Origin: Sphingopyxis sp. Root154
GTDB lineage: Bacteria > Pseudomonadota > Alphaproteobacteria > Sphingomonadales > Sphingomonadaceae
Assembly (NCBI RefSeq): GCF_001427105.1
Contig: NZ_LMGI01000001.1
Span: 620,001-684,000, forward strand
DNA length: 64,000 nt
Reading direction: 5' to 3'
The notes beneath the pieces were generated by a model. That model searched no databases. It worked only from the letters and a program-made list of their open reading frames with translations, and was not told the DNA's origin. The position numbers and the translations under genes were made by a program. Within the stretch, counting starts at the first letter, position 1. Every line of letters starts with the position of its first letter. Below, piece after piece: positions 40,442 to 62,336 of the stretch.

Positions 40442-40706
40442 TTGAGCCTCCGAGCGAGGGGAAATCAGGCTTGCACTTTGCCGCGCCGAGCAATTGCTGT
40501 CACGTCGATTTCACACCTGCCGCAGAGTAAGGCCGGTACAGGATCACCGGTCGGCTTCCAGTACATCTTGCTGAGTAAGATTGGTCGACCAAGGATTGGC
40601 GGCTTCTAGCCGTGGATTTAAGATAGCGGAAATTATCGAAGGGGTTCTCGGTGACGAAGTGGATCGTCCAAATGCCGCCTGCAGCGTCGCGAGTATCCGC
40701 CTCCTT

Positions 40707-43402: not shown

Positions 43403-43432
43403 TTGGCCGATTTCGGACTGGCAGCTTTCAGG
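43403..43432. repeat. Dispersed intergenic repeat, copy 1
   Basis: About 30 bases starting TTGGCCGAT and ending with CTGGCAGCTTTCAGG. Nearly the same sequence lies at 44710-44739 and a weaker form at 43921-43949. This lies in the 348-base stretch 43222-43569, where no gene was found. Confidence 0.45.
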
Positions 43433-44709: not shown

Positions 44710-44739
44710 TTGGCCGATAGCAGACTGGCAGCTTTTGGA
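44710..44739. repeat. Dispersed intergenic repeat, copy 3
   Basis: TTGGCCGAT then GACTGGCAGCTTT; matches copy 1 at roughly 25 of 30 positions. Directly abuts the DUF1275 stop codon. Confidence 0.45.
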
Positions 44740-47689: not shown

Positions 47690-47962
47690 AATGGCCGACC
47701 AAGGTCGGAATCGACAGGCAAAGCTCGACGATGGGCTGGGTGCCGCGCCTCATCGGACAACAAACGCGCCCTTGGCGAAGCCGCAGGCGGGGCGGCGTGC
47801 GCGCGGGCCTGGGCTTTTAGCCGCCGCCCCGCCAAGAACAGCGAGCCAAGAGCGCTGCGCGGCCAATCGTGCAAACGCGCGACCTCTGGCGGCGCCTGCC
47901 GCCGTCAGTGTACGCTCATTTGAGGCCGCGCTCACTATGACCGTCGAGCCCAGCCGATGCGG

Positions 47963-49930
47963 TCAGCTCTCCCACGCGAGGTTGAGCACGACCGCCGCCA
48001 TCGCGGATTTGTCATGCGGCAGAAACCGGCCATAATGTTTGGCGACGATCTCGGGGCTATCCTGAATCGCATAGCCCGCCTGCTCATAGGAGCCGGTCTT
48101 CTTGAGCACATGGGTTGCCAGTACGTCGCGAACATTATGTGGGCCGTGTGGCAGCAAGCCCTTGATTGCGCCTTGCCCTGTGTAGGGGTTGTAGATGCCG
48201 TATCGCTGGATTGTAAGGCGCCACGCATCGTAAAAGCCTAATTGGCTATAGGCGGCATTTTTCGTCGTCAGCTTGGCAGACTTTACGAAGAAGGTCCTCG
48301 GATCCTCAGCGCCGCCAAGGAGGATTTGCCGGTCCCGCTGGAGATAGATGTCGATGAACTCGTAGAGCCGCCCGAGATCGGGAAGCAGGAGCCGGTAAGG
48401 CTTCCTGCTGAAGAAGGAGGAGGACGCGTTCTTGAAGGCGACCGCCGGAATGAAGACCTCCCATCCACCCGAAAGATCATTCCATCTGAGTTCGCCGCAT
48501 TTCAGCATCTCAAGCTGCTTCTCAGTGCTGTGCCGTCCGCCCCGGACGCAGAAACGAAGCTGCCGCAGATTCTTCTGGCGTAGTCCGAGATGTAATCCGA
48601 AACGCAACATCAAGAAGGCGCGCACGGCCTCGGCAGCCGACTTTGGGTGACGCCGTGCATTCGGCATCCGGTCCAATATTTCCTCGGTGATCTTGCGATA
48701 CTCGCCGACGGGGCTCGCCGCTTCGAGGATCGGCAGTATCGGTTCGAACGGATCGCGGTGGACCTTCGCGACGCGCTGGACATCCTTCTTCCGGTTCAAC
48801 GCATAGATGGTGAAGCGATCGCAAAGGGCATCCCAGTCCTGCCGGGCTTCGTCGATCTCGCTCGGCGATATCAGGCCATCGACTGGTTGCAGCGCGCCCG
48901 CAAGCCCCGGATTCTGCCGCATCCAGCCCGTCTTGTCGCGCGAGAGCGACAGCGCGAAGTCGAGCATATTGACCTCCCAGCTCGTGTAGAAGCCGCGGCG
49001 ATCCTCGCGCCACTGGAGATACCAATCCCAGACCGAAGGAAAGAGAAGCATGGCCAGGCACAGCCGGTCGAGCGGAACGCCATGGCCCTTGACCTCGCTG
49101 TCGAGCGGCGAGCGCAGCGCGCCGAAGAGAAGTCCCAGATGTTCGAGCTTCTGCGACGCGGTCTCCTCACCCCACATGCCCTGACGTAACAGCCCCGATG
49201 GAGCCAGCGTAGATGTCTTGAACGCGATAAGACGGCCTACCTCATGCTGGAGATGCAAGGGCGCGTCGCGGCAACCGGGCAGATTCTCGTCGACTGGGTC
49301 CGCTGCAGCGACAGCTACATCGCCCGGTACGAAATCATGGCAGTCGATCCGCGGGAAACGGAGAGAGAAGCGCTGCTGCGTCGCTCCACGCTGGAAGCGC
49401 CGATAGTCCGTAGTGCCGGCAATGATGACCGAGCGCACCCATTCCAATATTTCATCGCGTTCACGCTTGGGGCGCTTCGCGAAATCGCCGGGGAGGTGCC
49501 ACGCGAGCCGGCGTCGCTCGGGCGTGCACAATGTGGGAATGGCCCGCCTGGCCGTAGCGCGGCCACTTCGGTCCAGCTTGTCCCGAAAATATCCCGCGGG
49601 AAGCCGATAGCGGTGCTCGATCCGTTCGAGCACGGCGAGGCTCTCGATCGTTCCCGGCGCTCTTGTCCCTAGAACCCAAGTCTGGATCGTCTTGCGATCG
49701 GTCTTGTCGCGCGGGCCGATAATCGCGCGATGGAGATGATTGCAGCTGTCGCCATGCCGCCGCATGTGCAGCGCGAGTGCTTCCGGAAAGGAGGATGGGT
49801 CGACCCAGTCCCCTTCCAAAGCCTGCGGGAACTCGACAACCGGCTTGGGCTTCGGACCCCGCTTCTTTTTAGCATGACCCACGGCCCCGGCGATCTCGAT
49901 ATCGGGAAAAAGGGACGGACATTCAGCCAT
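47963..49930 (-). CDS. Large tyrosine recombinase-like protein with N-terminal HTH-like domain
   Basis: A 655-residue protein, far longer than a usual integrase. The C-terminal quarter shows the tyrosine recombinase active site: R451 in HLGLRQKN, H598 and R601 in PHNVRDVLATH, and H632-Y633 in IVAKHYGRF. Residues about 55-120 (HLHRAIIGPRDKTDRKTIQT, then TIESLAVLERIEHRY) resemble a lambda-repressor-type HTH. The middle part (about 130-420) is not recognised. Start GTG 49942 is an alternative. It is 208 bases to the left of tRNA-Thr, on the wrong side for classical 3' tRNA integration. The substrate site is unknown. Confidence 0.75.
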   Translation of the reverse strand: MAECPSLFPDIEIAGAVGHAKKKRGPKPKPVVEFPQALEGDWVDPSSFPEALALHMRRHGDSCNHLHRAIIGPRDKTDRKTIQTWVLGTRAPGTIESLAVLERIEHRYRLPAGYFRDKLDRSGRATARRAIPTLCTPERRRLAWHLPGDFAKRPKRERDEILEWVRSVIIAGTTDYRRFQRGATQQRFSLRFPRIDCHDFVPGDVAVAAADPVDENLPGCRDAPLHLQHEVGRLIAFKTSTLAPSGLLRQGMWGEETASQKLEHLGLLFGALRSPLDSEVKGHGVPLDRLCLAMLLFPSVWDWYLQWREDRRGFYTSWEVNMLDFALSLSRDKTGWMRQNPGLAGALQPVDGLISPSEIDEARQDWDALCDRFTIYALNRKKDVQRVAKVHRDPFEPILPILEAASPVGEYRKITEEILDRMPNARRHPKSAAEAVRAFLMLRFGLHLGLRQKNLRQLRFCVRGGRHSTEKQLEMLKCGELRWNDLSGGWEVFIPAVAFKNASSSFFSRKPYRLLLPDLGRLYEFIDIYLQRDRQILLGGAEDPRTFFVKSAKLTTKNAAYSQLGFYDAWRLTIQRYGIYNPYTGQGAIKGLLPHGPHNVRDVLATHVLKKTGSYEQAGYAIQDSPEIVAKHYGRFLPHDKSAMAAVVLNLAWES

Positions 49931-50137
49931 GAGGGTGGGCACTTTATATAGACTCCTGCATTCGATTTCGGGGCTGCGCCCGATGGCAGAAGCTCCCTTT
50001 CAAATCGAAAACGGCTCGATCGCTCGCTATCCGGTTGAAGGAGAATGCGGTCGCAAACCGTCTGTTGCGGTCCTCGAGGGAAAGTGCGCCACGACGCTTG
50101 TTTTCGCGCCGACACGCTGGTAGAGGCGCCCCTCGTT

Positions 50138-50213
50138 GCCGCTTTAGCTCAGTTGGTAGAGCACATCATTCGTAATGATGGGGTCACAGGTTCGAGTCCT
50201 GTAAGCGGCACCA
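50138..50213 (+). tRNA. tRNA-Thr (anticodon CGT)
   Basis: 76 bases folding as a complete cloverleaf: acceptor GCCGCTT / AAGCGGC, D arm AGCTCAGTTGGTAGAGC, anticodon stem TCATT / AATGA around CGT, T arm with GGTTCGAGTCC, and encoded CCA. Base pairing is intact. The anticodon CGT reads ACG (Thr). Confidence 0.96.
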
Positions 50214-50312
50214 TCGACCCCATAAATCAATGACTTAGGCGACACTCCGACTGGTTGCGCGTGGGCCGGATCGATGCTTGCGACCGCCGGGATAAGAATC
50301 GAATAGCTATCT

Positions 50313-51083
50313 TTATCCGCGGCCCGCGACTGGGCGCCTGGCAGAGAGCCCGAAGTCGGACGGCCGAAAGCTGAACCGGTCGTTGGAGGGAAATGCCCCG
50401 AATGCGGTAAGCTCGCCCCGCTCGTAACGAAAATGCCAGGTTTGGGCATTGCGAGGCTCCCGATCGTGGAAGACGGATGCGTCAAACAAGGCGACATTCG
50501 CGCGATGCTGAGGGTCTCGAACGGACGCGTAACGTATTGCTTGCGCCTCGATTAACCGTGCCTCAACGGCAAACAACTGACACGCCGAATAATCATCCGG
50601 CGACATCCATAGCGATGCACCCCCGACAAATGGCTGCGCGCACAGATCGAGCATGCGATCCATGCTCACGGAAACGCTGATTGCCGAATGCTCCACAGTA
50701 GTGCTCGGCGGTTGAGCCTCCGGCGATCGGGAATAGAATCGAAGACGCCAATAGGCTGTCTCCGCGATCGCCGTGTCGATTGTCTCAGCCGCATAGAAGA
50801 TGCCGGGTTTTTCGCCGACGCGACGGAATCTTGAACTACTCTTGTGTCCGTAACGAAACGGGGTGGCGAGCAAGTAGTGGAGATCCCTGGCCGCCACGGG
50901 CATGTTCGGCTTCACGTCGTCGGCCAACCGTTCGAGCAAAGCCTGATCTTCCGCGCCAGCCGCGAGACGGTTTGTCGAAATCCGATGCTGCGCCTCAACA
51001 ATCCGCCAGAGCTTTCCACTATAGACGCGAAAATGCTCTGGCTTCGGCGTTTGTTCAAACGCGGGCGCGGTAGTCATCGACAT
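50313..51083 (-). CDS. RES-domain toxin
   Basis: A 256-residue toxin of the RES-Xre system; characterised members destroy NAD+. The RES core is seen in LWRIVEAQHRIS, RFRRVGEKPGIFYAAETIDT and AIAETAYWRLRFY with the family's Arg, Tyr and Glu, and further conserved SP..YSACQ. The N-terminus (about 1-60) is an added segment. The gene overlaps the antitoxin gene by 29 bases. Start ATG 51083 or 51077. Confidence 0.88.
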   Translation of the reverse strand: MSMTTAPAFEQTPKPEHFRVYSGKLWRIVEAQHRISTNRLAAGAEDQALLERLADDVKPNMPVAARDLHYLLATPFRYGHKSSSRFRRVGEKPGIFYAAETIDTAIAETAYWRLRFYSRSPEAQPPSTTVEHSAISVSVSMDRMLDLCAQPFVGGASLWMSPDDYSACQLFAVEARLIEAQAIRYASVRDPQHRANVALFDASVFHDREPRNAQTWHFRYERGELTAFGAFPSNDRFSFRPSDFGLSARRPVAGRG

Positions 51084-51429
51084 AGTCGGCTACCTCGCTC
51101 AAACCGCGGATCGTCCGGATCAGATCGATAGGTCTGCCACCGAGGTCCAGATTCTCGGATTTCAGCCACGATATTGAGGCCGCATCGTCGCTCCCCATGA
51201 GCGCATCGAGGCTGCGAAAAAGGCGAATGAGATACTGCCCCAGCTCGAACGCTTTCTCGACTCGCTGGAGTTTGTAGCCGCCGGACCGAAGTCGAGACGC
51301 CGTGGCAGCAGAAATGCCGACGACCGCACCCAATTGCTCGTTGGTCAATTTCCAGCACGTGGCGACGCGCGCGACCGCTTCCGAAAGAACTCGGCTCTGA
51401 TCCGCTTGAGAAACCAGCCGCGTCGCCAC
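51055..51429 (-). CDS. Xre/MbcA-type antitoxin
   Basis: A 124-residue antitoxin. The N-terminal HTH (LSEAVARVATCWKLTNEQLG, ISAATASRLRSGGYK) and the C-terminal Xre-MbcA-ParS toxin-binding domain (LFRSLDALMGSDDAASISWL, GRPIDLIRTIRGL) are both present. Start GTG 51429 is chosen because AGGAG lies seven bases before it and because the longer frame to ATG 51462 would place the palindromic operator inside the coding sequence. It precedes and overlaps the toxin gene, the usual order for autoregulation. Confidence 0.87.
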   Translation of the reverse strand: MATRLVSQADQSRVLSEAVARVATCWKLTNEQLGAVVGISAATASRLRSGGYKLQRVEKAFELGQYLIRLFRSLDALMGSDDAASISWLKSENLDLGGRPIDLIRTIRGLSEVADYVDDYRARV

Positions 51430-51440
51430 AACATTCTCCT

Positions 51441-51464
51441 GAATGAAATTCCACAATATCATTC
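51441..51464. promoter_or_regulatory. Palindromic operator of RES-Xre operon
   Basis: Half sites GAATGAAATT and AATATCATTC separated by CCAC; nine of ten positions are complementary. It lies 12 to 35 bases upstream of the antitoxin start, where the autorepressing Xre protein would be expected to bind. Confidence 0.65.
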
Positions 51465-51501: not shown

Positions 51502-52719
51502 TCATTTCGCAGTCAGTGCCGCAATCTGGCCTTCATCGGATGCACGAAGGGCATCGAGATAATCGCTCCACCATTGGTGCATCGCGACGCGCTCATTCCA
51601 GTAGCGTCCGCGATTGTAGGTGCCGCGAACCGCATTGGCGTCGGCGTGCGCAAGCGACCGCTCGATCGCATCGGGGTGCCACTTGCCGCTTTCATTGAGC
51701 AGTGACGAGGCGGTCGTCCGAAGGCCGTGAGCGGTAACTTCTCCGGTCGAATATCCCATCCGCCGGAACGCCTGGTTTAGGGTGTTCTCGCTCATCGGCC
51801 GGCGCGATGTATGAAATGCCGGAAATACGAAGCCCTCGGGCCCCGTCAGTTCATGGAGCTGCTTGAGGTAGGCGATCACCTGACGCGACAAGGGTACGGC
51901 GTGGGGACGCCGCATCTTCATTCGCTCGGCCGGGATGCTCCATACGGCATTCTCGAAATCAATCTCGGGCCACAGCGCTTTGCGCATCTCACCCGGACGG
52001 GCCATCACATGGGGTGCGATCTGGCATCCGAGCCGCGTGATGGCGTTCCCGGTATAACCATCGATCGTTCGCAGGAACGCGCCGACGGCTTCCGGTTCAA
52101 GAAGTGCTGCGTGGTGCGTCACACGCGGCGCGATGAGCGCTCCGCGCAGGACCGCCGTGGGGTCGCTTTCACCCCGCCCTGTCGCGACCGCGTAGCGGAA
52201 CACTCTGCTGGCAAAGGACCGGGCACGGCGCGTCGTTTCATATTTACCCCGCGCTTCAATTTTCTTGAGCGCGGCAAGGACGTCGACCGGCTTGAGGTCA
52301 GCGACAGGCATTGCGGCGATAGGCTTCAATTGATCGAGGAGCCAGTTGGCCTTGACCGTGGTTGCATCCGCCCGGCCATCGGCAACCGATTTGTCGATAT
52401 ACTCCTTGGCGATGTCGCCGAAGGTGTTGGCGGCCTTGTACTGAGCGACAAGCTTATCGCGCTTTCGCTCCGCCAGCGGATCGATCCCGTCGCGAAGCTT
52501 TCGGCGCGCATCATCGCGAAGGCGCCTCGCCTCTGCCAAGCTCACTTCGGGATAAAGTCCAAGCGCGATGCGATTGTCCTTGCCCATGAAGCCATATTTG
52601 TATCGCCACAGCTTAGCGCCCGTCGGCCTGACCTCGATGTAGAGACCATTGGCATCGGCCCGCTTGTAGGGACGGCTCTCGGGTTTGAGCGAACGGATCT
52701 GGGTATCGGTAAGGGGCAT
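51502..52719 (-). CDS. P4-type tyrosine integrase
   Basis: A 405-residue site-specific recombinase that inserts genomic islands into tRNA genes. The N-terminal DUF4102-type arm-binding domain (PLTDTQIRSLKPESRPYKRA) is followed by a core-binding domain and a catalytic domain with R241 (ARPGEMR), H331-R334 (HGLR), H358 and nucleophile Y368 (GTYNRG). AGGAG precedes ATG 52719. It is located 227 bases from the 3' end of tRNA-Leu, the classic arrangement for an integrated island. Confidence 0.94.
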   Translation of the reverse strand: MPLTDTQIRSLKPESRPYKRADANGLYIEVRPTGAKLWRYKYGFMGKDNRIALGLYPEVSLAEARRLRDDARRKLRDGIDPLAERKRDKLVAQYKAANTFGDIAKEYIDKSVADGRADATTVKANWLLDQLKPIAAMPVADLKPVDVLAALKKIEARGKYETTRRARSFASRVFRYAVATGRGESDPTAVLRGALIAPRVTHHAALLEPEAVGAFLRTIDGYTGNAITRLGCQIAPHVMARPGEMRKALWPEIDFENAVWSIPAERMKMRRPHAVPLSRQVIAYLKQLHELTGPEGFVFPAFHTSRRPMSENTLNQAFRRMGYSTGEVTAHGLRTTASSLLNESGKWHPDAIERSLAHADANAVRGTYNRGRYWNERVAMHQWWSDYLDALRASDEGQIAALTAK

Positions 52720-52945
52720 TGGGGGGCGACTCCTGCAAACAGGCCTTGGCCAGAGCGGGAGGAGCGGGCTCAAAATCGACAAAAGGGGCCACCGAAATTT
52801 CCCGGGCCATCGTGCCCCGTTTCGGTGGCCCGTTTTTGGTGAGATCGAGTGAAACTTCCTCGGACGCCCAAAGACAAGACCAAGGATAAAATGGCAGATT
52901 TCTGCCGTTTTGTCGATGGTTCTGGGGCGTCGTGATAGGGGAAAA

Positions 52946-53032
52946 TGGTGCCCAGAAGAGGACTCGAACCTCCACGACCTTGCGATCGCCAGCACCTGAA
53001 GCTGGTGCGTCTACCAATTCCGCCATCTGGGC
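52946..53032 (-). tRNA. tRNA-Leu (anticodon CAG)
   Basis: 87 bases including CCA on the minus strand. Acceptor GCCCAGA, D arm with GGCGGAATTGGTAGACGC, anticodon stem CCAGC / GCTGG with loop TTCAGGT (anticodon CAG), a long variable arm, T arm GGTTCGAGTCC, and 3' CCA. The long variable arm confirms a leucine type. The adjacent integrase suggests its 3' end is an attachment site. Confidence 0.96.
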
Positions 53033-53232
53033 ACGGGGTAGGAGCGGGCGCTTAGCGGCGCGTATGTCGGCTTGTCAACCGCGTCGGACCAGCCAGAGTG
53101 CATTTTATCGCAAAGCTGCCGGTTTCGCGTCGGAATGCCGTCCTCGCCCCTTGCTCCCCTCCCCGCTTCGCGGCATGGGAAGGCCTTCGGCGCGCCCCGC
53201 GCCATCCAGAGAATCGATCACAGGCGGACGAC

Positions 53233-54171
53233 ATGCAGAAACTCGACGGGCAATTGATCACGGTATTGGGGGGCGGCGGCTTCCTCGGCCGCTATGTCGT
53301 GCAGCGCCTGCTCGCACGCGGTGCGCGCGTTCGCATCGCGCAGCGCGAACCCCGCGCCGCGACCTTCCTGAAGCCGCTCGGCGGGCTCGGCCAGACCCAG
53401 TTCGTCGCGGTCGATGTTCGCGACGCGGCGAGCGTCCTGCGCGCTGTGCAGGGCAGCGACGCCGTCATCAACCTCGTCGGCGCGTTCGGTGACATGCAGG
53501 CGGTGCAGGCCGACGGCGCGGGCCATGTCGCGACCGCAGCCAAGGCGGCGGGCGCCGGTGCGCTCGTTCATGTCTCGGCGATCGGCGCCGATCCCGCGAG
53601 CGCCTCGGCCTATGGCCGCAGCAAGGGCTATGGCGAAGCGGCGGTCCGCGCGGCCTTTGCCGACGCCGCGATCCTGCGCCCGTCGATCCTGTTCGGCCGC
53701 GAGGACCAGTTCATCAATCGCTTCGCCACGATGATGCGCATGGCGCCGGTGGTTCCGGTGATCGCCCCGAATGCGAAATTTCAGCCCGTCTATGTCGGCG
53801 ACGTCGCCGATGCGGTGGTCGCGGCGCTCGGCAGCGACGCTGCAGGCAAGACTTTCGAACTCGGCGGGCCGCAGGTGCTGACGATGGCCGAATTGCTTCG
53901 CTGGGTTGCCAATGCGACCGGCCGCTCGCCGCTGTTCGTCGACGTGCCCGACTTCGTCGCCTCGGCGCTCGCGAGCGGCTTCGGCTGGGCGCCCGGCGCG
54001 CCGATCACCAAGGATCAATGGCTGATGCTCCAGCGCGACAATGTCGTCGCCGACGGCGCCACGAGCCTCGCCCAGCTCGGCGTCACGCCGACCTCGCTCG
54101 CCTCGGTCGCCGAGGGCTGGCTCGTCCAATATCGCCGCCACGGCCGCTTCGCGCAGTTCGCCTCGCGATAA
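53233..54171 (+). CDS. NDUFA9-like NAD(P)-binding reductase (atypical SDR)
   Basis: A 312-residue extended/atypical short-chain dehydrogenase. The nucleotide motif is VLGGGGFLGRYVVQRLLARG; VINLVGAFGDMQAV, VHVSAIGADPASASAYGRSKG and ILRPSILFGREDQF match the complex I NDUFA9 subunit-like group found in alphaproteobacteria. Catalytic residues of SDRs are incomplete (YGRSK rather than YxxxK), so a structural or quinone-related role is possible. ATG 53233 is chosen on family start. Its stop overlaps uppP (TAATG). Confidence 0.87.
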   Translation: MQKLDGQLITVLGGGGFLGRYVVQRLLARGARVRIAQREPRAATFLKPLGGLGQTQFVAVDVRDAASVLRAVQGSDAVINLVGAFGDMQAVQADGAGHVATAAKAAGAGALVHVSAIGADPASASAYGRSKGYGEAAVRAAFADAAILRPSILFGREDQFINRFATMMRMAPVVPVIAPNAKFQPVYVGDVADAVVAALGSDAAGKTFELGGPQVLTMAELLRWVANATGRSPLFVDVPDFVASALASGFGWAPGAPITKDQWLMLQRDNVVADGATSLAQLGVTPTSLASVAEGWLVQYRRHGRFAQFASR

Positions 54172-54971
54172 TGAGTATCTGGCTGACCGCAATCATCCTC
54201 GGCATCGTCGAGGGTTTGACCGAGTTTTTGCCCGTCTCCTCGACGGGGCACCTTATCCTCGCGACCGAATTGCTCGGCTATGACGCCGCGCGCTGGGCGA
54301 TCTTCAACATCGCGATCCAGCCGGGCGCGATCCTCGCGATCGTCGTCCTGTACCGGAAACTCTTCTGGGAGATGTTCACCGGCTTCTTCCGCCGCGACCC
54401 GGTCGCGATCGCTTTCGTGCGCAACCTTCTTCTCGCTTTCTTCCCGGCGGTCATCCTCGGCCTCGCCTTCGGCGACTATATCGAGCTGCTGCTCGAGAAC
54501 GCCGTTGTCGTCGCCTGGGCACTGATCATCGGCGGCTTTGCCATCCTGCTCGTCGAGCGTTTCGCGAAGACGAAAGACGTCGGCGGCGTCGCGAATGTGT
54601 CGGCTCGGCAATCGATGCTCGTCGGGCTCGTCCAGTGCATCGCGATGATCCCGGGGGTCAGCCGCTCGGGCGCGACGATCCTCGGCGCGATGTCGTTCGG
54701 GGTCGACCGCAAGACCGCAGCCGAGTTCAGCTTCTTCCTCGCACTCCCGACGCTGACGGGCGCGACCGTGCTGCAGCTGTTCAAGCATCGCGATGCGATC
54801 ACGACGAACGATCTCAGCCTGATCGCGGTGGGCTCGCTCGTCTCTTTCGTCGTCGCGTGGGCGGTGATCAAGGCATTCCTCGCGGTCGTCACGCGATACG
54901 GCTTTGCGCCCTTCGCCTGGTATCGAATCATCGCGGGCGTCGCCGCGCTGATCTGGCTCGGCATGAGATAG
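54171..54971 (+). CDS. uppP: Undecaprenyl-diphosphatase UppP (BacA)
   Basis: A 266-residue polytopic membrane enzyme that removes a phosphate from undecaprenyl diphosphate to recycle the cell-wall lipid carrier. Both catalytic motifs are present: EGLTEFLPVSSTGHL (the E-rich motif) and PGVSRSGATI (motif PGxSRSxxT). Eight helices are predicted. It is coupled to the upstream reductase (start shares the base of the stop TAA). Confidence 0.95.
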   Translation: MSIWLTAIILGIVEGLTEFLPVSSTGHLILATELLGYDAARWAIFNIAIQPGAILAIVVLYRKLFWEMFTGFFRRDPVAIAFVRNLLLAFFPAVILGLAFGDYIELLLENAVVVAWALIIGGFAILLVERFAKTKDVGGVANVSARQSMLVGLVQCIAMIPGVSRSGATILGAMSFGVDRKTAAEFSFFLALPTLTGATVLQLFKHRDAITTNDLSLIAVGSLVSFVVAWAVIKAFLAVVTRYGFAPFAWYRIIAGVAALIWLGMR

Positions 54972-55021
54972 GTCCGAATCGGTATCAATTGACGAAAGAT
55001 AATTGCGCGGACACGTTTTGA

Positions 55022-55033
55022 GGTAAATTTACC
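55022..55033. promoter_or_regulatory. Perfect 12-base palindrome upstream of gltD
   Basis: GGTAAATTTACC, in an AT-rich stretch between uppP and gltD, 97 bases before the gltD start. It could bind a dimeric nitrogen regulator, but none can be named from sequence alone. Confidence 0.45.
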
Positions 55034-55129
55034 CTTATTTTAGGTTAGCAATGCTGTCCTAACTCGCAATTTGGTCGTGACAGCCTAATTTCGACCATGC
55101 AATTCGCCTCTCAACGAAGGGGATATTGC

Positions 55130-56572
55130 ATGGCTTCCGATCGCATGCTCCAGTTTGTGGAGCGTGAACAATCCTATCCGGACAAGCGCTCCGCCGAAGA
55201 ACGCGCGCGCGACTTTCGCGAGATCGCCGAGCGCTACGCGGCGCCCGACGCCGACGCACAGGCGGCGCGCTGTTCACAGTGCGGCGTGCCCTATTGCTCG
55301 GTGCATTGCCCGCTCCACAATCATATTCCCGACTGGCTGCGCCTGACCGCCGAGGGCCGCCTGCGGGAAGCCTATGAGCTCAGCAACGCGACCTCGACGA
55401 TGCCCGAGATCTGCGGCCGCATCTGTCCGCAGGATCGCCTGTGCGAAGGCAATTGCGTCATCGAATTTTCGGGCCATGGCGCGGTGACGATCGGCAGCGT
55501 CGAGAAATATATCACCGACACCGCCTGGGCCGAGGGCTGGGTCGAGCCGCTGCACGCGGGCGCCGCGACTGGCCAGTCGGTCGGCGTCATCGGCGCCGGG
55601 CCCGCGGGCCTGACGGCCGCCGAATATCTGCGCGCCGCGGGGCACGAGGTCCATGTCTATGACCGCCACGACCGCGCCGGCGGGCTGCTGACTTATGGCA
55701 TCCCCGGCTTCAAGCTGGAGAAGGATGTGGTGATGCGACGTATCGACCGGCTGGTCGCGGGCGGCATCCACTTCCATCTCGGCTTCGCGGTCGGCGAAGA
55801 TGCGACACTCGACGCACTCCGGCAGAAGCATGACGCGATCCTGATCGCAACGGGCGTGTACAAGGCGCGCGAGATCAATGTCCCCGGCAATGGTGCAGAC
55901 GGCGTGATCGCGGCGCTCGACTATTTGATCGCATCGAACCGCAAGAGCTTCGGCGACGATGTTCCCGCGTTCGACGACGGCCGCCTCGATGCCAAGGGCA
56001 AGCATGTCGTTGTGATCGGCGGCGGCGACACCGCGATGGACTGCGTCCGCACCGCGGTGCGGCAGGGCGCGAAGTCGGTGAAATGCCTCTACCGCCGCGA
56101 CCGCGAGAATATGCCCGGATCGCAGCGTGAGGTCGCGAACGCAGAAGAGGAAGGCGTCGAATTCGTCTGGCTCTCCGCCCCCGAAAGCTTCACCGCCGAC
56201 AAGCGTGTAAAAGAGGTCGCGGTCGCGGGCATGCGCCTCGGCGCGCCCGACGCGAGCGGTCGCCGCAGCCCCGAGGCCGATCCCGGCCGCAAGTTCGATG
56301 TGCCCGCCGACATGGTGATCAAGGCATTGGGCTTCGATCCCGAGGAACTGCCGCACCTGTTTGGCTCACCCGACCTTTCGGTCACGCGCTGGGGCACTTT
56401 GCGCGTCGATCACCAGACGATGATGACCAGCCTGCCCGGCGTTTTTGCCGCCGGCGACATCGTTCGCGGTGCCAGCCTGGTCGTCTGGGGCATCCGCGAT
56501 GGGCGCGATGTCAGCGACCAGATGGCAAAGTGGTTGAAAGCGAAGGCGAAAAGCGAAAAGAAGGCGGCATGA
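55130..56572 (+). CDS. gltD: Glutamate synthase small subunit GltD
   Basis: A 480-residue FAD and iron-sulfur flavoprotein that passes NADPH electrons to GltB. The N-terminal cysteine clusters are RCSQCGVPYCSVHCPLHN and CGRICPQDRLCEGNCV; the FAD fold starts GVIGAGPAGLTAAEYL and the NADPH fold VVVIGGGDTAMDC. ATG 55130 follows AAGGGG; the earlier ATG at 55097 has no family sequence. It is first in the nitrogen assimilation operon gltD-DUF2059-gltB. Confidence 0.96.
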   Translation: MASDRMLQFVEREQSYPDKRSAEERARDFREIAERYAAPDADAQAARCSQCGVPYCSVHCPLHNHIPDWLRLTAEGRLREAYELSNATSTMPEICGRICPQDRLCEGNCVIEFSGHGAVTIGSVEKYITDTAWAEGWVEPLHAGAATGQSVGVIGAGPAGLTAAEYLRAAGHEVHVYDRHDRAGGLLTYGIPGFKLEKDVVMRRIDRLVAGGIHFHLGFAVGEDATLDALRQKHDAILIATGVYKAREINVPGNGADGVIAALDYLIASNRKSFGDDVPAFDDGRLDAKGKHVVVIGGGDTAMDCVRTAVRQGAKSVKCLYRRDRENMPGSQREVANAEEEGVEFVWLSAPESFTADKRVKEVAVAGMRLGAPDASGRRSPEADPGRKFDVPADMVIKALGFDPEELPHLFGSPDLSVTRWGTLRVDHQTMMTSLPGVFAAGDIVRGASLVVWGIRDGRDVSDQMAKWLKAKAKSEKKAA

Positions 56573-56592
56573 CCAACAGGGAAGGAATTTTC

Positions 56593-57780
56593 ATGACGCC
56601 GACGTTCAAATCGATCCTGCTCGCCGGTGCGATCGCGATCGCGCCTGCACACGCTTTTGCCGCGCCGAAGGAAGCCCCGGTGGCCGAAGTGGTTACCGTT
56701 CCCTCGCCGCCGCAGGTCGAGGATGAGGCATCGAGCGAGTATGACAGCAAGGCCGCTGCCGAAGAGGCAAAGGCGAAGATGCAGAAGGAAATGGACGAGG
56801 CGATCGCGCTCGTCGAAAAAATGTTCGACACCAGCAGCCTGCCGCCGATCGAACCCGCCCGCCTGACGCTCGCGCAAAAGACGATGGGTGCGCTGATCCC
56901 CGCCGGCAGCCTGGAGAAGATGATCGACAATCTCTATGGCAAGATGTTCAAGACGATCATGGGCGAGTTCGGCGGCCAGTCCGACCTGATGCTCTCGATC
57001 CAGACCGGCGTCGAAAGCGAACAGATCGCCAAGCTCGACGAAGCGACCAAGGGCAAGGTCGCCGATATGTTCGACCCGCATCGCAAGGAGCGCGAAGACC
57101 AGATTACCAAGGTGATCAAGCCGCTGATCAGCGAAGTGCTGGGCGACATGGAGCCGCCGATGCGCGAAGGAATGTCCAAAGCCTATGCGCGCAAGTTCAC
57201 CGCGGCGCAACTCACCGACCTCAACGGCTTTCTCGCGACCCCGACCGGCACGCTCTACGCCAATGAATGGATGGCGCTGCAGGCTGATCCCGAGGTGATG
57301 GTCGCGGTGATCAGGGCGGTGCCGCCGCTGATCACCAAATTCATCGACCGCGCACCCGAGCTCGAGAAGGATTTCAAGGACCTGCCGAAGGAAAAGCAGC
57401 TTTCGGACTTTGACGACAAGGAACTCGGCAAGCTTGCCAAGCTGATGAAGGTCGATGTGAAGGTGCTGAAGGAACAGCGCGACATGTGGAAGACCGACAG
57501 CGTCGAAGCGACCGACGCTGTCGCGGTCGAGGCGGCCGACGATTATGCCGTCGACGCGGCCGCCGATGCAGCAGTGGCCGCGGAGGCTGCGGCCGACGCT
57601 GCCGTTGCAGTCGATGCGGTCGCCGACCCCGCCTATGACCGCAGCAACTGGTCGGCCGCCGATCTCAAGCGCGTCGAAGATCTCGAGACCGCGTACGAAA
57701 ATGCATCGCTCGCTGCGCAGCAGGCCGCCGAGGAAGCGGCGGCCAATGCAAGCAAGCGCTCGAAGCTGCCCAACAAATAG
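56593..57780 (+). CDS. DUF2059-domain exported protein with Ala-rich tail
   Basis: A 395-residue protein with a signal peptide (MTPTFKSILLAGAIAIAPAH) and a central DUF2059-like region (YARKFTAAQLTDLNGFLATPT). A charged helical region follows and a long Ala/Val/Asp low-complexity tail (about 305-345, DAAADAAVAAEAAADAAVAV) precedes a final coiled coil. Function unknown. ATG 56593 has AAGGA eight bases upstream; ATG 56569, overlapping the gltD stop, would place the signal after eight extra residues. Its place between gltD and gltB is unusual. Confidence 0.8.
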   Translation: MTPTFKSILLAGAIAIAPAHAFAAPKEAPVAEVVTVPSPPQVEDEASSEYDSKAAAEEAKAKMQKEMDEAIALVEKMFDTSSLPPIEPARLTLAQKTMGALIPAGSLEKMIDNLYGKMFKTIMGEFGGQSDLMLSIQTGVESEQIAKLDEATKGKVADMFDPHRKEREDQITKVIKPLISEVLGDMEPPMREGMSKAYARKFTAAQLTDLNGFLATPTGTLYANEWMALQADPEVMVAVIRAVPPLITKFIDRAPELEKDFKDLPKEKQLSDFDDKELGKLAKLMKVDVKVLKEQRDMWKTDSVEATDAVAVEAADDYAVDAAADAAVAAEAAADAAVAVDAVADPAYDRSNWSAADLKRVEDLETAYENASLAAQQAAEEAAANASKRSKLPNK

Positions 57781-57803
57781 GCATCCAGCCTGTCAGGACG
57801 AAG

Positions 57804-62336
<4,533 letters not shown>

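Follow-up and report, generated by a model that had tools for sequence, protein, structure and literature searches.

A recombinase with a helix-turn-helix domain

The DNA considered here (the window, meaning all 64,000 nucleotides taken from Sphingopyxis sp. Root154, contig NZ_LMGI01000001.1, positions 620,001 to 684,000) carries on its minus strand a gene for a protein that is almost certainly a tyrosine recombinase with a helix-turn-helix (HTH) domain, and 195 bp from the start codon of this gene lies a tRNA-Thr(CGT) gene. The explanation that we favour, on balance, is that in Rhizobiaceae the genes of this family and unrelated accessory modules are mobile cassettes exchanged at the short sequence CTTGA, with the family recombinase acting. 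We make this judgement jointly with the view that the family consists of undescribed HTH-fused tyrosine recombinases of the Alphaproteobacteria.

An earlier note, made from the window sequence, had described a 655-residue frame at 47963-49930. The open frame is real, and a fuller version of it extends to 49942, giving 659 residues from a GTG; ATG or GTG stands at the homologous start in three relatives of 83-84% identity. An AlphaFold model built on an alignment of 30 sequences (mean predicted local distance difference test score, pLDDT, 70.7; predicted template modelling score 0.58) bears out the N-terminal Xre-type HTH proposed in that note, since residues 49-127 align structurally with DdrO (Z 8.2), PlcR (Z 8.2) and P22 c2 (Z 8.0). 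Likewise, the C-terminal R, HxxR and Y that it had seen prove to be R455, H602, R605 and Y637, all invariant in the 30 sequences and set within a catalytic domain (residues 396-659) of Xer/Cre fold, for which the best match is the archaeal Xer 4a8e (Z 10.2, root-mean-square deviation, rmsd, 3.7, 167 residues aligned), with further matches to XerH, XerD and Cre. The large middle part, called unrecognised, remains so for residues 130-229, to which structural alignments of the model assign no domain, and less so for residues 230-395, for which alignment to the core-binding domain of Cre or XerH is obtained only at high overall rmsd (12-14). A model of a second member (L047) reached a mean pLDDT of 65.4. 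Tyrosine recombinases usually have His or Trp nine residues before the tyrosine, and here all 30 sequences have Asp (D628); the position is variable across the superfamily, so that membership rests on the fold and the other residues.

Relatives of the window protein

Family libraries are silent on this protein. Searches of Pfam (expectation value, E, up to 1), of NCBIfam and PHROGs (both to E 10) and of phage records (to E 1) gave no match, and in the PDB there were just two chance-level hits at E 1 by sequence and none by profile; a match to a recombinase family of described function, which the earlier note had named as the outcome that would count against novelty, was thus not seen in these libraries. 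Among 28 aligned members a single one matched Phage_integrase weakly (E 0.033), the libraries being otherwise near-silent on the relatives, and the Pfam searches returned no Arm-DNA-bind match for the window protein or its relatives. We recognised no published description of the recombinase or of the site discussed below in openly licensed papers, a scope that makes this weak evidence of absence.

Translated searches (tblastn) found matches in 197 plasmid records, 89 of which span 80% of the query or more; most come from Sinorhizobium (60), Rhizobium (57) and Agrobacterium (50), and 123 of the 197 are typed as conjugative. In the genome collection 176 stretches with a family gene were confirmed. 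The best 80 of these, which were fetched for locus comparison, come mainly from Rhizobiaceae, and also from Devosia, Sphingopyxis, Caulobacter, Magnetospirillum, Roseibium and others; one Azospirillum plasmid also bears the gene. Most relatives are longer (about 785 residues as annotated on plasmids), with some 130 extra N-terminal residues that are absent from the sphingomonad members and from one Caulobacter member. Comparison of homologue neighbourhoods, which the earlier note had proposed, found no overall conservation of neighbouring genes, but did show that toxin-antitoxin or restriction-like genes recur within 8 kb of the family gene (a HipA cluster at 17 loci, Fic at 13, HNH at 13).

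Two further observations concern the family. Frames of 129-156 residues in seven genomes (G077, G079, G081, G085, G094, G105, G116) match the family profile over no more than its first 107 or so positions, a free-standing version of the N-terminal domain and perhaps a separate small protein family. At one Rhizobium-group locus (L014:9960-12182) and ten others, a second, convergent tyrosine recombinase lies 22-124 bp past the family gene; that of L014 matches PF00589 and DUF6538, and a tRNA-Gln(CTG) comes next in 9 of the 11 loci.

Site-bounded units in Rhizobiaceae

Where near-identical copies of the family gene stand in differing contexts, their similarity ends at set points, in many pairs about 90-115 bp past the stop codon, and the upstream limit of similarity varies with the cargo. 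Both unit ends bear the same direct 25-bp motif, CTTGANNGGANTCGAACCNNCGACC, which read in reverse corresponds to a tRNA T-arm followed by part of the acceptor strand. A weight matrix of this site found 83 occurrences, a number that includes its seeds and in which nine are one match within the recombinase gene itself on the other strand, as against 5 in the same sequences read backwards; the largest backward maximum per locus was 15.5, and true ends scored up to 36.3. The 14 units with both ends identified span 3.7-5.2 kb. The comparisons given below are independent of the seeds of the matrix. The flanking repeats for which the earlier note had suggested a search are accordingly present at the ends of the Rhizobiaceae units, and were not found in the window's own genome at up to two mismatches.

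The sharpness of these ends is seen in plasmid comparisons. Among the 14 top-ranking plasmid rows, self excluded, that a unit of pAtCFBP7129b gave as query, 11 start to match within the left site (exceptions H111, H113 and H115) and 13 cease to match no more than 11 bp from the right site (exception H114); some of these rows are near-duplicate records, and lower-ranked rows of about 75% identity were left out. Likewise, in eleven records the match to the pAt1 unit breaks off at query positions 2159-2184, the site of that unit ending at 2160. A segment of about 530 bp at one locus (L149, query 2161-2687, record 84960-85486), between the unit's site and PP2C/AbiEii-like genes, recurs elsewhere beside LysR genes, and no second site was found at its far end.

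Stretches between neighbouring sites hold VapBC (729-889 bp), RelBE (788 bp) and HipBA (1.9 kb) modules, a Fic gene (1.8 kb; the Fic protein of L079 matches SoFic), IetAS (4.0 kb), a MATE transporter (2.1 kb), and the recombinase with a PIN gene and a DNA-binding gene (3.7 kb); longer metabolic stretches lie between sites on pTH2a.

That the Rhizobiaceae insertion sites might be real tRNA genes was considered and found no support: scanning of eleven plasmid regions returned no tRNA gene, and the host halves flanking 14 elements do not restore a paired T-stem (mean 0.57 of 2 pairs versus 0.61 for shuffled halves, p 0.68), the variable T-stem pairs of the single sites in these elements being 0.39 (left) and 0.46 (right) of 2, again versus 0.61. 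The sites mimic tRNA sequence, not tRNA structure, and the T-stem result therefore also speaks against folded single-stranded sites of the integron kind.

Crossover position and natural exchange

Where copies of a unit are compared across its ends, identity changes at the CTTGA. At the right end of nine chosen copies of one unit type (36 pairs) it amounts to 0.88 over the 20 bases preceding the site and 0.91 at CTTGA, then 0.58-0.69 in the remainder of the motif and 0.28 beyond it. At the left end of four chosen copies (6 pairs) the corresponding values are 0.25 before, 0.90 at CTTGA, 0.83-0.88 over the next 40 bases and then 0.70. Five Fic-bearing units behave similarly, with 0.53, 1.00 at CTTGA and 0.30 beyond the site at the right end, and 0.31, 1.00 at CTTGA and then 0.53-1.00 at the left; all these identities are ungapped, so that small insertions lower them, and L055 was omitted at the left end since its site is one base shorter. 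These profiles place the exchange point at or adjoining CTTGA and assign the T-loop-like half of the site to the right-hand partner.

Natural replacements are consistent with this position. For example, the Agrobacterium plasmids pAt1 (NZ_CP048586) and pAtCFBP5877a (NZ_CP039899) share 98.7% identity along 9.8 kb, as far as a site next to a RidA gene, beyond which one has a peptidase-ATPase pair (IetAS in PADLOC) and the other VapBC followed by AbiE genes, a stretch with no closing site nearby. The same VapBC cassette occurs twice in pAtCFBP5877a, 27 kb apart, with a different right half. At the RidA site of a third plasmid, pY9 (CP018001), lie the recombinase unit and two VapBC cassettes. The junction in pY9 combines two of the pAt1 sites: its left 50 bases match the flank of one with one difference, its 25-bp site and right side match the other, and the switch falls inside the shared 8 bp GCTCTTGA, between flanks that are 97.4% and 99.1% identical.

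Number and polarity of sites

Across 13 whole gene-bearing plasmids (4.65 Mb; partly related, so that their counts are not independent), the site pattern with up to three mismatches gave 87 hits and the backwards pattern none. Individual plasmids have up to 14 sites; NC_011984 and the Azospirillum plasmid have none at this threshold. In eight whole genomes the backwards control gave 2 hits, and some of the forward hits are by sequence tRNA genes. The sites are strongly polar, 82 of the 87 lying on the strand of the recombinase gene, a bias kept over the whole of these Rhizobiaceae plasmids. Replication strand was considered as the cause and gave no clear answer: positions relative to repC yield no clean rule, a two-replichore rule fitting 67 of the 87 sites (79 are opposite to repC) and being broken by plasmid W13.

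The Sphingopyxis locus

Ten of 36 Sphingopyxis genomes, the window's own included, carry the gene, whole or in part. Apart from the window's own, four genomes of the genus have a full-length, stop-free frame at 83-84% identity, which implies selection on the protein, and partial copies occur in G003, G025 and G032. An intact tRNA-Thr(CGT) lies upstream in seven close copies (the window, L002, L003/G012, L004, G014, G020, G028), and none was found in the stretch scanned of two members of 58-59% identity (G019, G030). In most of the close copies similarity extends from roughly 212 bp beyond the stop codon as far as 25 bp past the tRNA-Thr, whereupon the flanks differ; L003 has an additional 6.3 kb after the gene. 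A 20-bp sequence shared past the tRNA-Thr was considered as an end repeat and discarded, as no second copy was found in any of 13 sequences scanned.

The position of the window copy is clarified by a relative that lacks the gene (G006), in which a tRNA-Thr is followed after 3.4 kb by a tRNA-Leu and then by flank matching 52898-59290 of the window (91.7%, 6.4 kb); the corresponding tRNA-Thr of the window's genome is on another contig. Because of this order and the flank comparison, the window appears to show the right end of a tRNA-Leu island that is served by a P4-type integrase and contains both the recombinase and a second tRNA-Thr. The integrase also overturns the statement in the earlier note that the neighbourhood holds no companion recombinases; its true start is probably an ATG near 52719, judged from where the arm domain begins. 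A comparable island in G020 has genes for a TraA-like helicase, ArdC and a type III restriction pair; a further gene there has a homologue in L002 that matches ParB_N.

A tRNA-Thr(CGT) lacking one base occurs in three of the 36 genomes (G000:C2:611145, G020:C1:1283056, G032:C1:84970), and in G014 the native gene is missing between otherwise adjoining flanks (L140:5318-5320). All four genomes carry the recombinase gene or a remnant, and in them the native tRNA-Thr gene has apparently been replaced by the mobile copy. The association of the one-base loss with carriers (3 of 10, versus 0 of 26 others; hypergeometric 0.017, computed after the fact) is suggestive. The lost base is homologous to the Rhizobiaceae crossover position, and its loss would fit either past recombinase action or decay of a redundant gene.

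Interpretation and alternatives

The unit ends, the site, the crossover position and the presence of the same modules at different sites are read from the sequences themselves, and together they give good support to an integron-like exchange of cassettes at tRNA-T-arm-like sites in Rhizobiaceae. That the family recombinase catalyses this exchange is likely; the window copy may do so as well. A cassette would take the form NNGGANTCGAACCNNCGACC ... genes ... CTTGA, its cargo being toxin-antitoxin genes, anti-phage genes, transporters or the family genes, and would move by site-specific recombination at CTTGA between direct sites. The recombinase would cut and join at CTTGA by means of Y637, would recognise, perhaps through its HTH, the neighbouring GGANTCGAACC part as double-stranded DNA, and would act in trans on sites across the replicon. 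The window copy, on this explanation, is a divergent sphingomonad member, carried with a spare tRNA-Thr in the tRNA-Leu island, and its target is probably T-arm-like too. The earlier note had suggested an undescribed transposon or inversion system. Mobile units with sharp direct-repeat ends, in which the gene often lies in Rhizobiaceae, support an undescribed mobile system for the family; an inversion switch does not agree with direct sites, 82 of 87 of which share the strand of the gene.

Several findings weigh against this explanation. All its support is computational, from sequence comparison and structure models. The weight matrix was seeded with 25 unit ends, so that scores at the seeded ends are not independent, and of the 85 fetched loci only 24 have a right-end site (score at least 14, within 700 bp) and just 14 have both ends. 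No site with up to two mismatches was found in the window's genome or in seven other Sphingopyxis-group genomes, and the hits in four other non-Rhizobiaceae carriers look by sequence like tRNA genes. On the side of the protein, pLDDT falls below 50 at residues 504-512, 594-602 and 628-643, around K504, H602 and Y637; D628 replaces the usual His/Trp in every sequence. The structural check proposed earlier, while recovering the HTH and Xer/Cre folds, was weak by Foldseek alone (best match XerA, E 0.62), and hhalign of the family profile against two known integrases gave no signal, perhaps on account of the low diversity of the profile (Neff 2.2). Finally, in the 42 Rhizobium-group genomes (our own division, by order and size, of a 70-genome sample), sites with at most one mismatch are present in 15 of 17 that have the gene at E 1e-50 and in 22 of 25 that do not.

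This last comparison is one ground for supposing that the exchange is real but catalysed by another resident Rhizobiaceae recombinase, the family gene being one passenger cassette among many; another is that its unit resembles other site-bounded units. If any match at E 1e-3 is counted, sites occur in 26 of the 29 genomes that have one and in 11 of the 13 that have none. Nonetheless, a profile search detected remnants of the recombinase, of parts beyond the N-terminal domain, in 6 of the 25 non-carriers (6 more match the N-terminal 107 positions alone), so that loss of the gene with the sites left behind is possible, as is another enzyme; sites and gene are both absent from the other 28 genomes and confined to the same 42, and the shared strand of sites and gene extends across plasmids. 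We regard a resident enzyme as fairly unlikely. Far less probable is that the gene encodes a catalytically dead DNA-binding regulator or defence protein, as its HTH, the aspartate at 628 and the frequency of toxin-antitoxin or defence genes nearby might suggest, given that the arginine, lysine, HxxR and tyrosine are invariant in 30 diverse members and that the units carrying the gene are mobile.

For the window copy itself a further alternative is that it rides in the tRNA-Leu island as a passenger, decayed or domesticated, which persists on account of the neighbouring spare tRNA-Thr having become needed and not for any recombination of DNA. The damaged or missing tRNA-Thr genes of carriers, the partial copies in three genomes and the want of a recognisable site in the window's genome all point that way, but the frame and catalytic residues are intact and so are the stop-free frames of its relatives; we consider this doubtful, though not negligible. 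It is also unlikely, and more so than either of the preceding possibilities of decay or of a resident enzyme, that the protein is an ordinary tRNA-targeting island integrase with its attachment site in the T-arm of tRNA-Thr and islands ending in two tRNA copies. G020 at first fitted such an arrangement, having two tRNA-Thr copies on the same strand, 20 kb apart, around its helicase/ArdC/ParB island, with the gene beside one of them, and the one-base loss falls where crossover would be expected; however, comparison of G000 and G014 with G006 points to an island at tRNA-Leu instead, the P4-type integrase accounts for it, and in Rhizobiaceae the 11 plasmid regions scanned gave no tRNA gene and the host halves no T-stem better paired than in shuffled halves.

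Relation to known systems

Integrons are the textbook bacterial gene-cassette system. Like them, the units described here involve a tyrosine recombinase, a crossover at a short conserved core and, in Rhizobiaceae only, tandem cassettes that swap at a common site and of which several carry toxin-antitoxin or defence genes. Unlike integrons, they show no IntI-family match (NCBIfam up to E 10; no Pfam match for the window protein) and their site does not pair like a hairpin, as attC-type folding would entail; the recombinase gene itself lies inside a site-bounded unit, the sites flanking it look alike, none standing out as a unique attI in comparisons that were not aimed at this question, and sites are scattered across 100 kb or more, some units comprising several genes or operons. 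In its working the system resembles an integron; we do not class it as one, because two defining features, IntI and a folding attC, are lacking. Rhizobiaceae sites without a recombinase gene resemble CALINs, which PMC8618304 describes as cassette sites without an integrase.

P4-type tRNA-targeting island integrases (Islander/TIGER) share with the family the tyrosine recombinase and a core resembling a tRNA T-arm, but not the lack of a tRNA gene in the 11 plasmid regions or of an Arm-DNA-bind match. Tycheposons, according to PMC10872708, combine a tyrosine recombinase, tRNA association and variable cargo; they are set apart here by description only, as elements bordered by tRNA genes and 4-200 kb long. 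The 'simple' tyrosine recombinases Xer and Cre have the same catalytic fold, and differ from the family in its long N-terminal half with an Xre HTH, its aspartate at the His/Trp position and the absence of a family-model match for the window protein.

A broader proposal, which we advance tentatively and hold to be slightly less than an even prospect, is that these HTH-tyrosine recombinases constitute a second, integron-independent cassette system, moving toxin-antitoxin, anti-phage and metabolic cassettes between double-stranded, tRNA-T-arm-mimicking sites that are dispersed over Rhizobiaceae plasmids with replicon-wide strand polarity. If cassette exchange of this kind is real, plasmids of plant-associated bacteria would possess a cassette system with a different recombinase and site, rich in toxin-antitoxin and anti-phage genes. 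This would explain how such plasmids shuffle defence and stability genes and would supply a new site for recombination; site-specific recombination would also account for much of the mosaicism of symbiosis plasmids and Agrobacterium plasmids.

Other features of the window

The features of the locus are collected in Table 1.

Table 1. Features of the recombinase locus, in window coordinates
Feature	Position	Strand	Remarks
HTH-tyrosine recombinase gene	47963..49942	-	659 residues from GTG; 655 from in-frame ATG at 49930, four codons later
Xre/Cro-type HTH domain, residues 49-127	49562..49798	-	AlphaFold model and VIA-align, Z ~8 to DdrO, PlcR, P22 c2
Probable core-binding domain, residues 230-395	48758..49255	-	Aligned range with Cre/XerH, high rmsd; tentative
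Tyrosine-recombinase catalytic domain, residues 396-659	47966..48757	-	4a8e Z 10.2, rmsd 3.7; XerH, XerD, Cre
Catalytic R455	48578..48580	-	Invariant in 30/30 sequences
K504, putative hairpin lysine	48431..48433	-	Invariant in 30/30 sequences; role suggested by motif
HxxR (H602 and R605)	48128..48139	-	Invariant in 30/30 sequences
D628 at usual His/Trp position	48059..48061	-	Invariant in 30/30 sequences; spacing compared with XerD
Putative nucleophile Y637	48032..48034	-	Invariant in 30/30 sequences
212 bp past stop codon	47751..47962		Common to islands of L002, L004, G014, G020, G028; similarity ends near 47751
tRNA-Thr(CGT), intact	50138..50213	+	Divergent from recombinase; beside each of seven close Sphingopyxis-group copies examined
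25 bp past tRNA-Thr 3' end	50214..50238		Last sequence common to close copies before flanks diverge
RES-domain toxin gene	50313..51083	-	PF08808, E 1.8e-28
Xre/MbcA/ParS-type antitoxin gene	51055..51462	-	PF09722, PF20432
P4-type integrase, 497-residue frame	51502..52995	-	PF13356 (Arm-DNA-bind_3), PF22022 (Phage_int_M), PF00589 (Phage_integrase)
tRNA-Leu(CAG), island target	52946..53032	-	Integrase frame overlaps its end; native flank to right

The RES/Xre pair of the window (50313-51462) is reduced in related islands to a short antitoxin-matching region (L138 12365-12849, L140 17057-17540); that the pair is itself a cassette in the window was considered and is unsupported, these islands keeping sequence similar to part of the antitoxin region. 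Among the genes to the left of the recombinase, a 26-nt direct repeat occurs three times (40581-40606, 43403-43428 and 44710-44735), its copies being 69-88% alike.

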